The notes under the pieces: generated by a model | What the model was told of the DNA's origin: nothing | Seen by the model: the letters and a program-made list of their open reading frames with translations, nothing else | Database searches by the model: none | Shown here: one piece after another, positions 2,827 to 36,717 of the stretch | Position numbering within the stretch: the stretch's first letter is position 1 | Layout: the number at the start of each line of letters is the position of its first letter | Translations under genes and position numbers: made by a program | Source: Oligoflexia bacterium | Lineage (GTDB): Bacteria > Bdellovibrionota > UBA1018 | Reading direction: 5' to 3' | Length of the DNA: 36,717 bases | Assembly (NCBI GenBank): GCA_023700925.1 | Contig: JAMPXZ010000006.1 | Coordinates: 1 to 36,717 of the forward strand

Positions 2827-3160
2827 TCCTCAGCTTCTCCTTTAGCCTCTGTCGCCCTCATCTGGCCTCCGTAGTAGCTAACCACAGCGCTGCTCTTTCT
2901 CTAGCCACTTCGCAAACAACCTCTTTTGAAAGCGCAGCTCCCGCCCAACCACCATCACCGGCGGTCGCCGCACCGGTAATGTAACTAGTCAATATTATGC
3001 ATAATTTAAATATTACGATCGTTTATTACAAGTTTTCTTACAAATCTTGCAACAAATTCTGAAACCCAGCCAGGTTTAATGCAACACTTTGTTATCATTA
3101 GTGAAACCTAGATTATGCGGGAAGCGACAATAGGTTTTACAACCATTTCTACCACTTTTG

Positions 3161-3187
3161 TTACAAGTTTTGTCTGAAAACTTGTAA
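3161..3187. promoter_or_regulatory. perfect inverted-repeat operator candidate upstream of fic
   Basis: TTACAAGTTTT-GTCTG-AAAACTTGTAA, 11-bp arms, ending 9 bp before the Fic ATG. An identical 11-mer half-site lies at 3026-3036. Confidence 0.65.
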
Positions 3188-3196
3188 TATCAAGCC

Positions 3197-4450
3197 ATGT
3201 CAAACATGTCCCCGAAAGACGAATTTGAGTTCTTAAACTCACCGATTTGGTTGGACTATACCCAGCAGCGTTACCTTGCTCCGGACGAGATTCGGTATCG
3301 AATTCAACAAAAGAACGCCTTGGGGGCCGACTGGCCGGAACTCGCAAAAAGGGTCGTCCTTAATCGGAAAACTGGAGCGATCCCACTCTTCATGGCGTGC
3401 ATCGACAAGAAGTTCTGGTTCTTCCCATCGGATAGTTTGACCCGCAAGCTGGACGAGATTGAACGACTCGGATTGAATCTTTACAAAAGAATCGAACAAC
3501 AGGCGTCATTTAGAGAAGCACTCTTCCTTGACTCAGCAGTTGAGGAGGCAATTACGTCAGCAATATACGAAGGCGCTCACAGCACTCGAGCACAAGCCCA
3601 GCAGCTCATTGCGTCTGGCAGCAGACCCAAAAATAGAGATGAATGGATGCTTCTGAATAATTTTAAAGCAATGCTCTGGATTCAGCAGCACCGAAACGAG
3701 CCTGTTTCAGAAGAAGTCATCCTGCATTTACATCGGATGGTCACTCAAAACACCTTGGAAGGAGATGATGCAAACTTTTCTGGAAAGTTTAGAAACGACA
3801 AGGCGTTTATCGGCCCACACGAAGGAGTTCATCACTCGCAAATTCAGGCTGCCATTAATGAGGCGATTACATTAACTACACGGAACCCTCGATACATTCA
3901 CCCACTAGTTCGCGGCATTCTTTTTCACTATTTTATCGCATTCATTCATCCGTTCTTTGATGGGAACGGAAGAACAGCCAGGGCTCTCTTCTACTTCAAA
4001 GCAATGCGAAACAGCCTTGAGTACATTCAACTCCTTTCCGTTTCAGCCTATCTCAAAGAGCACGGATCACAATACGAGAAGGTATTTGAAAAAGTTGTGA
4101 CGAATGATTGCGACATTACGTACTTTATTGATTTCTGCCTGGACTCGATCCACTCGGCATTAATGGCAGTATCGAAAAAAGTGGACTATCTGCTGCGTTT
4201 AAATGAATTAAAGGAAAAAGCAGCGGTAACGCCCAGTCAGATAGGCCTACTTCAAAGAATGGCCCTCCATAAATTCAGAACCGTGAGCATTGAAGAACAT
4301 GCAAAACAAATCGGAAAATCGAGAGAGATAGCCAGACAGGAATTGAAGGCTCTATTCGAGATCGGACTTATTGAAGTAACTAAGAGCGGTAAGAAATTGG
4401 TTTACTCGATGAACAAATCGAAGCTCGAGGCGCTAATAGGGACGCCGTGA
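3197..4450 (+). CDS. Fic family protein with N-terminal inhibitory-helix motif and C-terminal winged-helix-like domain
   Basis: Fic core motif HPFFDGNGRTAR. N-terminal SAIYEG fits the S/TxxxE(G/N) inhibitory motif. C-terminal HAKQIGKSREIARQELKALFEIGLIEV is HTH-like. Confidence 0.93.
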   Translation: MSNMSPKDEFEFLNSPIWLDYTQQRYLAPDEIRYRIQQKNALGADWPELAKRVVLNRKTGAIPLFMACIDKKFWFFPSDSLTRKLDEIERLGLNLYKRIEQQASFREALFLDSAVEEAITSAIYEGAHSTRAQAQQLIASGSRPKNRDEWMLLNNFKAMLWIQQHRNEPVSEEVILHLHRMVTQNTLEGDDANFSGKFRNDKAFIGPHEGVHHSQIQAAINEAITLTTRNPRYIHPLVRGILFHYFIAFIHPFFDGNGRTARALFYFKAMRNSLEYIQLLSVSAYLKEHGSQYEKVFEKVVTNDCDITYFIDFCLDSIHSALMAVSKKVDYLLRLNELKEKAAVTPSQIGLLQRMALHKFRTVSIEEHAKQIGKSREIARQELKALFEIGLIEVTKSGKKLVYSMNKSKLEALIGTP

Positions 4451-33285: not shown

Positions 33286-33332
33286 CCGATCATCCTGTGC
33301 TAGGGTGCGGCACTGCGAATCGAGAACGCAGG

Positions 33333-35864
33333 ATGACCTCGCCCGTCCCCCAAAAATCGCCGCAAAGTCCGCTGACGCGAATCAAAAACTGGCTCGTGAT
33401 GCCGGGCACCCGTTTCTCCGATTTCATCCTGCCTTTCAGCATCCTCATCCTTACCCTGACGATCTCGCTGGCCGCCCTCCGGATCTTCCGTGACCAGGAG
33501 CTGAGCTCCTCGCTGATCGATATCGCGGGACGCCAGCGCATGCTGCTGCAACGGCACTCGCGCGAGATCGAGTTCGGGATCCCCGGCGAGGAGCGCGCCT
33601 GGGGGACGCTGCAGGAGCTTTCGGAGGCCGCCAGCACTCTGCGGCACGGGGGCCAGCTCAAGTTCAGTGACGATCCGCCCTTGGTCATCCGGGTCACCCC
33701 CGCCTCGGACCCGCAGATCCAGGCGAAGCTCGAGGAGCAGATCCGGATCCTCGCTGACCTCGAGCGCCTGTCAGGCAAGCCTTTCGGCAGCCAAGGCTTC
33801 GTGCTGATGGAAAGAGCGATCCAAAACGCGAATGAGACCACCCATCTCTTCGTCGAGGCTTCGCAGGAACGCAGCCGCAAGCTGCTCCTCGCCGTGATGG
33901 GCCTCACCCTCGCGCTCGGGAGCCTCGGCATGTGGCTCAACCGCCTGATCGTCGAGCGCGGCATCCGGATGCAGCAGCTCCTGGCCGCGAAGGAAACCGC
34001 GGTACGGGCGTCCGAGGCGAAAACCCAGTTCCTCGCGAACCTGAGTCACGAGATCCGCACCCCGCTCAATGCGATCATCGGGATGACGGATATCCTGCAC
34101 GAGACGAAGCTCAGCCGCGAGCAGACGCGCTTCGTCGATACGCTCCGCCGGGCCGGCGAAACCCTCCTCGCGCTGATCAACGACATCCTGGATCTTTCGA
34201 AGATCGAGTCGGGCCGCGCGGAGCTTCAAGCGGAGGAAGTCGAGCTCTCGGAGCTGATCGATCGGATCGGCGAAATCATGGCATTGAGGGCGCATCAGAA
34301 AGGCCTGGAGCTCACCTGCTACATCGCCCCCGACGTGCCCTCGCACGTTCTCACGGATTCCAACGGGCTTCGTCAGGTCCTGGTCAATCTTCTCGGCAAC
34401 GCCGTGAAGTTCACCGCGAGCGGTGAGATTTCGCTTCGGGTCGAGCGCGCCGGTGAGGACTCAGAGCCCACTCTCGTACGCTTCTCCGTTTCGGACACCG
34501 GGATCGGAATAGCGGAAAACCGGTTCGAAGCCATCTTCGAAAGCTTCTCGCAGGCGGACCCCTCCATCGCGATGAACTACGGAGGCACCGGTCTTGGACT
34601 GGCCATCAGCAAACGCATCGTCGAAGCCATGGACGGGAAGCTCACGGTTCAGAGCCGGCTGGGCGTGGGAAGCGTTTTTGAGTTCACCATCCCCCTTCAA
34701 CCCAATCCCAAAGCGCAAATTCCCGCGCTCCCCGAGGTCCCGACCGGGACCCGGCGCATCCTGGTGGTCGATGACAACGACACCAACCGCTTCATCGTCC
34801 GGCGCTATCTCGATGGCTCCGCCGCCACCGTCGTGGAAGCCCGGGACGGGAACGAAGCGCTGAAACTCCTGCGCGAAGCGAGCTCGCAGGCGCGGCCTTT
34901 TGACCTGATCCTCCTCGATTACCGCATGCCCGAGGTAAACGGCCTGGACGTGGCCGAGGCCATCCAGGCGGAACGGCTCGCTCGCGGCGCGATCGTGATG
35001 CTGCTGACCTCCGATGGCCGGCGCGTCGATCTTCCGAGGCTGTCCGAGCTCGGAATCTCCGAGTACCTCGTCAAACCCGTGCGCAAAACCGAGCTCCTGC
35101 GAGCATTGAGCGCCGCCTCCTCCGTCGCGGGAGCGGGCCCGCGTGGCACCGCTCATCCTCCCGCCGAAGGAGCCACGGCCCCCTCGCTTTCGGGCCGCAA
35201 GGTCCTGCTGGTCGACGATGTCGAGGACAACCGCTTCGTACTCGCCTCGTATCTGGCAAGCACGGGCGCCCTGACTGACGAAGCGCGAAGCGGTGAAGAG
35301 GCGATCACCAAGGCGCGGCAGACCCCCTTTGACCTGATCCTCATGGACATGCGAATGAATCCCATCGACGGTTACGCCGCGACTGAGGCTATCCGACGGG
35401 CCGAACTCGCGAAGGGGAGCGGACGTGCCACCATCATCGCGGTCACCGCGCACGCGCTCAAGGAAGACATCGAGCGCGCGCTCGCCGCCGGCTGCGATGC
35501 GCACCTGTTGAAGCCCGTCAGCCGGGCGAAGCTTTTCGAAACCCTTTCACGGCTGCTTCGTGTTCCCGAGTCCCCGATCCAGCTCGAGGTCGAGGATTTT
35601 GTTCGTCCCCGGCTCGCGGCTTACGTGAAGAACCGCATCTCGGACCTCGCCGTCCTCCGGGACGCCCTGACTGCAAAAGACTTCGCCCGGCTGATGACGA
35701 TCGGACACAACACGGCGGGAACGGCGGGAATCTACGGGATGACGGAGCTGACCGACCTCGCCGCCCAGCTGGAGCAAAGCGCCAAACGCGGCGACATCAC
35801 CGCCGTGGCCGCCCTCATCGAGCGGATGGAAGGTTACCTCACGCGCGTGACGGCGCTCGTTTAG
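33333..35864 (+). CDS. hybrid histidine kinase: PilJ/NarX-like sensor, HisKA, HATPase, two REC, HPt-like
   Basis: SSLIDIAGRQRMLLQRHS; NLSHEIRTPLNAIIG; GGTGLGLAISKRIVE; ILVVDDND...ILLDYRMP; VLLVDDVEDN...ILMDMRM; IGHNTAGTAGIYG. Confidence 0.93.
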   Translation: MTSPVPQKSPQSPLTRIKNWLVMPGTRFSDFILPFSILILTLTISLAALRIFRDQELSSSLIDIAGRQRMLLQRHSREIEFGIPGEERAWGTLQELSEAASTLRHGGQLKFSDDPPLVIRVTPASDPQIQAKLEEQIRILADLERLSGKPFGSQGFVLMERAIQNANETTHLFVEASQERSRKLLLAVMGLTLALGSLGMWLNRLIVERGIRMQQLLAAKETAVRASEAKTQFLANLSHEIRTPLNAIIGMTDILHETKLSREQTRFVDTLRRAGETLLALINDILDLSKIESGRAELQAEEVELSELIDRIGEIMALRAHQKGLELTCYIAPDVPSHVLTDSNGLRQVLVNLLGNAVKFTASGEISLRVERAGEDSEPTLVRFSVSDTGIGIAENRFEAIFESFSQADPSIAMNYGGTGLGLAISKRIVEAMDGKLTVQSRLGVGSVFEFTIPLQPNPKAQIPALPEVPTGTRRILVVDDNDTNRFIVRRYLDGSAATVVEARDGNEALKLLREASSQARPFDLILLDYRMPEVNGLDVAEAIQAERLARGAIVMLLTSDGRRVDLPRLSELGISEYLVKPVRKTELLRALSAASSVAGAGPRGTAHPPAEGATAPSLSGRKVLLVDDVEDNRFVLASYLASTGALTDEARSGEEAITKARQTPFDLILMDMRMNPIDGYAATEAIRRAELAKGSGRATIIAVTAHALKEDIERALAAGCDAHLLKPVSRAKLFETLSRLLRVPESPIQLEVEDFVRPRLAAYVKNRISDLAVLRDALTAKDFARLMTIGHNTAGTAGIYGMTELTDLAAQLEQSAKRGDITAVAALIERMEGYLTRVTALV

Positions 35865-36267
35865 CGCGGGTTGTTTAGCCTAGGGCTTGACCGGCAATCC
35901 GTGTGAGTTTGGGTTTCCGTTTCAGTTTCCGTACGGTTCAAGACGCCCGTAACTGGCCGGTTTTCCTGGGCGCGACACAGCGTGAACAGGATTGCGCCAA
36001 GGCGGTCCAATTTTGTAAGCAATTCGAGATTCTCGATTTTTTCAAGCTCGATGATCGCCTCGCATTCGCGGAGGCTTCCAAAAGAGCAATACCGTAAAAT
36101 CGCCGCTGTTCTTGAGGCCTTCTTTTTCCGGCCCCTTCGCCGTATTCAAGGCTACGCTGGAACTGGCGCGCAAAGAGCTGATCCTGAAGGAAACGTGAAA
36201 TCCTCAGGGTTTTGCAGGCCCAATGAAATTCCTTTGCCAACTGGAACGCCTTAAAATCACGAAGCAT
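35861..36267 (-). pseudogene. four-helix-bundle protein (23S rRNA intervening-sequence-protein-like), frame-disrupted
   Basis: Spliced across frames: MLRDFKAFQLAKEFHWACKTLRISRFLQDQL / LRASSSVALNTA / EGAGKRRPQEQRRFYGIAL / GSLRECEAIIELEKIENLELLTKLDRLGAILFTLCRAQEN. Confidence 0.75.
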
Positions 36268-36387
36268 GAGTGCGATCGAGGTTTCGGGTTCCTACAGAAA
36301 GCGGATTCAATCCGAGCGCCGCGCAGCGAGCCGAATGGGCATCTTGAACCGTACGGAAACTGAAACGGAAACCTCAAACTCACACGG
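35899..36387. mobile_element. putative IVS-like element bounded by ~50-bp inverted repeats
   Basis: Left arm 35899-35948, right arm 36337-36387; 49 of 51 aligned columns identical in inverted orientation. Confidence 0.65.
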
Positions 36388-36396
36388 ACCCGCAGT

Positions 36397-36717
36397 TTAG
36401 CCGGCCTGTTTTCCCGCAGCCGCAGTCTGCTCTCCCGAGAGCCCGAGCTCCGGCTCGAGCTGCTTGAGCAGCCCCTGATCCACACCCGCAATCTGCCCGA
36501 GCTCGGCCAGAGACCCGAACCGTCCACCGCGCTGGCTCCGCGCCTGAAGGATGTTCTGGGCCGCCTCCTGGGAGAAGCCGACCGCGATGAAGTCTTCCTT
36601 GTCCATGCGATTGACGTCCGCCCGTTCCTCGCAGATTTTGACCGTGGGCATCTGATTCTGGCTGACCACCGTGCGGGTAATCCGCTTCCGGACGGGTATC
36701 GTGGCCTGGCCTTGTGA
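36397..36717 (-). CDS. helix-hairpin-helix (ComEA-like) protein, truncated by window edge
   Basis: VNRMDKEDFIAVGFSQEAAQNILQARSQRGGRFGSLAELGQIAGVDQGLLKQLEPEL; frame open to the window end. Confidence 0.7.
   Translation of the reverse strand, partial: SQGQATIPVRKRITRTVVSQNQMPTVKICEERADVNRMDKEDFIAVGFSQEAAQNILQARSQRGGRFGSLAELGQIAGVDQGLLKQLEPELGLSGEQTAAAGKQAG

Follow-up and report, generated by a model that had tools for sequence, protein, structure and literature searches.

Among the closest described counterparts of the element analysed here are the intervening sequences (IVSs) of 23S rRNA genes and the REPINs. The IVS of the Coxiella burnetii 23S rRNA, 428 nt in length, carries an S23p ORF between 28-bp terminal inverted repeats and is excised by RNase III; as to the origin of IVSs, transposition and mobile-element ideas have been set out without evidence either way (PMC4990558). 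REPINs are palindromic doublets (PMC3116915). The origin and mobility of rRNA IVSs, as well as the role of the IVP/S23 proteins, have been open questions since 1990. No prior report of IVP elements outside rRNA was found in the open-licence literature.

Structure of the element in the window

The window, i.e. the whole stretch of 36,717 nucleotides that was analysed, contains a unit of IVS-like layout (491 bp) located not in an rRNA gene but between the genes of a histidine kinase and a helix-hairpin-helix (HhH) protein. The convergent orientation of these neighbours, reported in a preliminary description of the locus, agrees with the ORF list and Pfam, and the statement that no rRNA is nearby also holds, as neither rRNA nor any other Rfam family was matched in the window. 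A PADLOC search for anti-phage defence systems gave no match. The features of the locus are as follows:

35862-35864, plus strand: TAG stop codon ending the hybrid histidine kinase gene that lies upstream (33297-35864; ORF list; Pfam HisKA, HATPase_c, two Response_reg, Hpt)
35876-35882, no strand: left target-site repeat TAGCCTA, TARSYTA type (sequence; comparison with other copies)
35883-35966, plus strand: left terminal inverted repeat of ~84 bp, GGGCTTGACCGGCAATC to GGTTTTCC, including the arm 35898-35948 (inverted-repeat scan, copy comparison)
35898-36267, minus strand: IVP remnant (four helix bundle, TIGR02436) with +1, -1 and +2 indels, its 3' end entering the left arm (93% DNA identity to the intact gene on contig C38)
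36337-36388, minus strand: right terminal inverted repeat, inner 52 bp, outer part decayed (inverted-repeat scan, copy comparison)
36396-36402, no strand: TTTAGCC, partial right target-site repeat overlapping the HhH stop codon (read from the sequence)
36397-36669, minus strand: convergent HhH protein gene, stop codon 36397-36399 (ORF list; Pfam HHH_3, 8.7e-07)

The near-perfect inverted repeats of about 50 bp noticed earlier are real: the scan of the window confirmed arms at 35898-35948 and 36337-36388, the same test was positive at 0 of 389 random window positions, and none of the inverted pairs within 1.2 kb in the whole window exceeds this one in length. The bounds first given to the element (35899-36387) correspond to these inner arms, but the terminal repeat is in fact about 85 bp long, opens with GGGCTTGTCCGGTAATC and ends beyond them; the left repeat of the window copy begins at 35883 with GGGCTTGACCGGCAATC, and on the right side the outer portion of the repeat is gone. 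The right arm is separated from the HhH stop codon by 8 bp, not by 9 bp as previously counted.

The ORF between the arms, described earlier as a four-helix-bundle ORF, matched no Pfam or NCBIfam model in its own frame, and its assignment to a decayed IVP comes from the copy on contig C38 of the same genome, to which the window unit is 93% identical over 400 bp of DNA; in this alignment, the three small indels listed above disrupt the window gene. The C38 gene is intact and matches TIGR02436 above the model cut-off (E 1.8e-16), its product having both the profile (PF05635, TIGR02436) and the four-helix fold of the IVP/S23 family. An AlphaFold2 model, based on an alignment of 39 IVPs, consists of four helices predicted with high confidence, and its closest solved structures, 2gsc and 2rld, both belong to the S23 family.

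Another inverted repeat of the window, AT-rich and with 33-bp arms of 88% identity (3024-3189), immediately precedes a Fic-like gene (3197-4450, assigned by reading its translation). This repeat is probably an operator or promoter feature, because it is single-copy in the genome.

Copies, target sites and empty sites

The genome to which the window belongs (a Bdellovibrionota MAG of 3.35 Mb in 262 contigs, 88.6% complete) contains about 12 dispersed copies of the element, the window included. The unit or its arms were found on contigs C38, C146, C97, C18, C174, C234, C29, C118, C148, C15, C52 and C253, although C174 carries one end, C15 is cut by the contig end, and C52 and C253 contain small pieces. 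The unit of C38 is 554 bp long and encodes the intact IVP, and the remaining copies are decayed or internally deleted, with sizes from 491 bp down to the 116 bp of C29, a plain hairpin. The copies have inner segments in common, as expected from internal deletions of one parent.

Identical 7-bp direct repeats flank four of the copies: TAGCCTA (C38), TAGGCTA (C18), TAGGTTA (C234) and TAAGCTA (C146), giving the consensus TARSYTA. None of them is its own reverse complement, two are non-palindromic, and each reads the same way at both ends; they are therefore target duplications lying outside the inverted repeat. The repeats also agree at C148 (TAGCTA) and in the window (TAGCC shared), those of C29 and C118 look mutated, and no clear target repeat was seen at C97 and C174. 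TARSYTA is rare, occurring twice in the 36.7-kb window, once at the element. For the family of this genome, the compared sequences make insertion as DNA by a 7-bp staggered cut a well supported interpretation.

Each of the four clear 7-bp repeats includes the left gene's stop codon; the right gene, encoded on the opposite strand, likewise stops within the repeat in C38 and C146, and its stop lies about 11 bp off in C18 and C234. Each of the ten copies that could be analysed has convergent genes on its two sides (eight called with a rough gene caller, the window by its ORFs and C29 separately), in agreement with the earlier suggestion that intergenic ends are targeted. With the element removed, the stop-to-stop gap is ~0 to 34 bp (C38, C146, C18, C234 and C29; ORF picks were unreliable for C97, C118, C148 and the window), compared with 9, 73, 79, 86, 90, 330, 442 and 959 bp, plus one overlapping call, for the convergent pairs of the window. 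Such a preference for stop-stop junctions spares the genes of the host.

In a genome of the same genus (G001), the genes flanking the C38 site abut without the element. Two elements of another genus of the family have empty sites as well, L163 in G015, and L152 in G028 and G015. These alignments are at 67-72% identity, and the exact junctions are therefore approximate. The same-genus genome offers no comparison at the window's own locus, the kinase being followed there by a different gene. Judging from these comparisons, the element is genuine and was mobile in the past, and the proposal of a small mobile element made in the preliminary description is supported by its multiple copies, the empty sites in sister species and the 7-bp direct repeats.

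IVP loci and their arms in related genomes

IVP genes were found in 20 of 58 relatives, up to ten per genome, and their loci show two layouts, one with a start-codon palindrome versus one with long flanking inverted repeats. In the first, a near-perfect palindrome of 20-30 bp directly precedes the start codon of IVP genes that stand singly or as divergent pairs. The palindrome has a loop of ~12 nt, and its arms terminate within the ribosome-binding site; a genome has as many as ten copies, frequently with contig ends adjacent. This layout occurs in the window's genome (L037:1-700, L048:1400-2200, L049:1300-2300) and in many relatives (L122, L125, L126, L128, L132, L140, L151, L159), and contig C38 (L037) bears both layouts ~3.5 kb apart (190-348 and 3679-4232). 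The palindrome type is possibly a separate mobile or self-regulated unit.

In the second layout, long inverted repeats, often with hexamer-like periodicity, tightly enclose the IVP gene, and the start-codon palindrome is absent. Named genomes, chiefly Bdellovibrionota MAGs but with some labelled Deltaproteobacteria, were scanned and yielded about 16 such loci, against 0/389 and 1/260 among control positions (1/649 in all), divergent IVP pairs with homologous coding sequences (L232, L235, L237, L245, L250, L260, L262, L274) not being counted. The element is thus neither single-copy nor are its arms unlinked to four-helix-bundle ORFs, two outcomes that the preliminary description had named as speaking against it. 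Except at orthologous or sister loci, the arm sequences are unlike one another. In 11 of the 16 loci, the upstream edge lies at most ~12 bp from the stop codon of the preceding gene. In the IVP tree, 13 of the 19 rows labelled arm-flanked fall into one 16-row clade (99/90 support), which holds C38 and no palindrome-type member. Six of these rows fall elsewhere, two of them (L262 and L274) being divergent-pair artefacts, so that the layout may have had repeated origins or losses.

Arms without a gene recur in other genomes, at about 15 sites in G002, at additional sites in G056 and G044, and as a second copy in G023. The ~15 dispersed sites of G002 (L286-L299) are mostly palindromic minis of 120-135 bp, often straight after stop codons, at which no clear target repeats were seen by eye. 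One Bdellovibrio MAG harbours four arm-flanked IVP elements (L208, L215, L216, L217), each with its own distinct arm sequence still matched to that of the partner arm.

L208, L212 and L213 represent one insertion shared by three Bdellovibrionaceae, with flanks 79-83% identical over 4.5-5.3 kb. Their synonymous sites are saturated, and the dN/dS of the IVP, where computable, is ~0.03-0.07, near that of the neighbouring gene, by which measure the IVP is under purifying selection. The arms match at 93-96% within an element and clearly less between species, and therefore evolve in concert, for which gene conversion between the two arms, or template-switch correction, would suffice. Arm mismatches compatible with G.U pairing are distributed without bias (26 sense versus 30 antisense, p 0.69, 56 informative mismatches and thus limited power), which favours matching at the DNA level over selection on an RNA stem, and the latter was rejected on this ground.

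The figure legend of a CRISPR mining paper (PMC10910872) names the 23S rRNA IVP among the genes newly linked to CRISPR adaptation modules. Periodic IVP-linked repeats might have been mistaken for arrays there, or the link may be real.

Possible mechanisms and relation to known systems

The explanation that appears somewhat better than evenly probable is that the locus in the window is a small mobile DNA element in decayed form, with an IVP-encoding parent, probably moved by a recombinase acting in trans, the IVP being an accessory. The analysis demonstrates the copies, their ends, target repeats and empty sites, the arm-IVP association, the lasting pairing of the arms and the purifying selection on the IVP; the trans recombinase and any role of the IVP are inferred. 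The parent would consist of ~85-bp terminal inverted repeats enclosing one four-helix-bundle IVP/S23 gene, and would insert as DNA into a palindromic site (TARSYTA in this genome) cleaved with a 7-bp stagger. This site would coincide with the place where the stop codons of convergent neighbours abut, so that both flanking genes would survive. Internal deletions might then produce ORF-less minis dispersing in the manner of MITEs. The recombinase would most likely act in trans, with the IVP as an accessory factor binding its cognate arms. A transposase in trans was to be looked for according to the preliminary description, but the assembly, 88.6% complete, yielded neither a recombinase or transposase with such ends nor any further locus bearing them; insertion sequences are frequently lost from MAGs. 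Also speaking against this explanation are the minis of G002 and the copies C97 and C174, at which clear target repeats are lacking.

Alternatively, the IVP might itself be the mobility determinant, which would recognise its paired arms and enlist general enzymes of the host in place of a dedicated transposase. It is the sole gene of the arm-flanked elements and is under purifying selection, the arms, wholly different between lineages, are still paired around an IVP, and the assembly contains no matching transposase. However, the fold is a small helical bundle without a known catalytic centre, the selection could stem from a host function, and a transposase missing from a partial MAG is weak evidence, and this explanation seems rather unlikely. 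The same holds for its general form, a class of transposable elements that have the IVP as their only protein and mobility determinant, recognise their own arms and insert at abutting convergent stops; we regard it as unlikely, and if it were true, rRNA IVSs would be the branch landing in rRNA genes. It is quite unlikely that the arms and minis are single-strand hairpins moved, like REPINs by RAYTs, by host Y1 (HUH) transposases with the IVP as a passenger. HUH movement leaves no target repeats, whereas the family of this genome has 7-bp ones, although minis of other families lack clear target repeats. The minis are tight palindromic doublets, as are REPINs (PMC3116915), and Y1 matches are present in all five genomes with extra arms (12 in G000, 7 in G002, 3 in G023, and 1 each in G044 and G056) and in none of the three genomes without them (G024, G028, G032). 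This comparison covers only eight genomes and counts the presence of Y1 genes rather than their adjacency to arms, and the distribution hints weakly at REPIN-like movement among other arm families.

The position of the elements, 0-12 bp past stop codons and between convergent pairs, as well as the persistence of paired arms in the old insertion common to three species, could also be explained by a fixed gene-end module, i.e. a hairpin kept as a bidirectional terminator or insulator. Such a module would leave the copies, the target repeats and the IVP unexplained, the stem is not followed by a U-tract, and a distinct terminator-like hairpin lies beyond the element at L208 and its orthologs; as a general explanation it is decidedly unlikely, although some copies may act secondarily as terminator or insulator. 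Least probable, and very unlikely, is a true IVS acting at the RNA level, with the stem cut by RNase III and the unit spreading via RNA. Its layout is that of the Coxiella IVS (PMC4990558), and folding of the transcript, suggested in the preliminary description, predicts a strong RNA stem (z -9.1 and -8.6). But rRNA is not nearby, no reverse transcriptase was matched in the carriers G024, G032, G044 and G056, which also led to the rejection of this enzyme as a required partner, and RNA processing is not supported because of the lack of G.U bias in the arm mismatches; the direct 7-bp target repeats point to DNA insertion. Of the earlier ideas, an RNA-processed element is thus not supported, while the IVS-like unit outside rRNA, its multiple copies, empty sites and location at convergent gene ends are.

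For the preferred explanation, a mobile DNA element with an IVP-encoding parent, the known systems offer partial parallels. The IVP has the same fold as S23-family four-helix-bundle proteins of unknown function (PDB 2gsc, 2rld), and a genomic setting is gained for 'four helix bundle proteins' whose annotation names no role. The Avd proteins of diversity-generating retroelements presumably resemble these bundles too, but the element has no adjacent reverse transcriptase, template or variable repeat. With REPINs and RAYTs it shares dispersed extragenic palindromic doublets and one gene-bearing copy flanked by the same repeats (PMC3116915). The arms are, however, far longer than REPs, the flanked gene encodes an IVP instead of a Y1 (HUH) transposase, and target sites are duplicated in this genome, unlike in REPIN movement and, by eye, in the G002 family.

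In common with MITEs are the terminal inverted repeats with target-site duplications (C38, C18, C234, C146) and the dispersed, internally deleted copies (about 12, of 116 to 554 bp), although the parent encodes an IVP, not a transposase, and an autonomous transposon with these ends was not found in the 88.6% complete assembly. As in 23S rRNA IVSs, complementary terminal repeats surround one ORF of the S23p/IVP family, intact in C38, in a unit of some 400-550 bp; the element differs from them in lying between protein genes, in its multiple copies, in its target repeats and in its ORF-less minis. Here elements that are dispersed, duplicate their targets and have empty sites contain the IVP as their only gene, in a layout that recurs in many species, and the movement of IVP units and its agent are therefore directly testable. 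The elements are best filed as a non-rRNA, IVS-like family of terminal-repeat elements with MITE-like derivatives.
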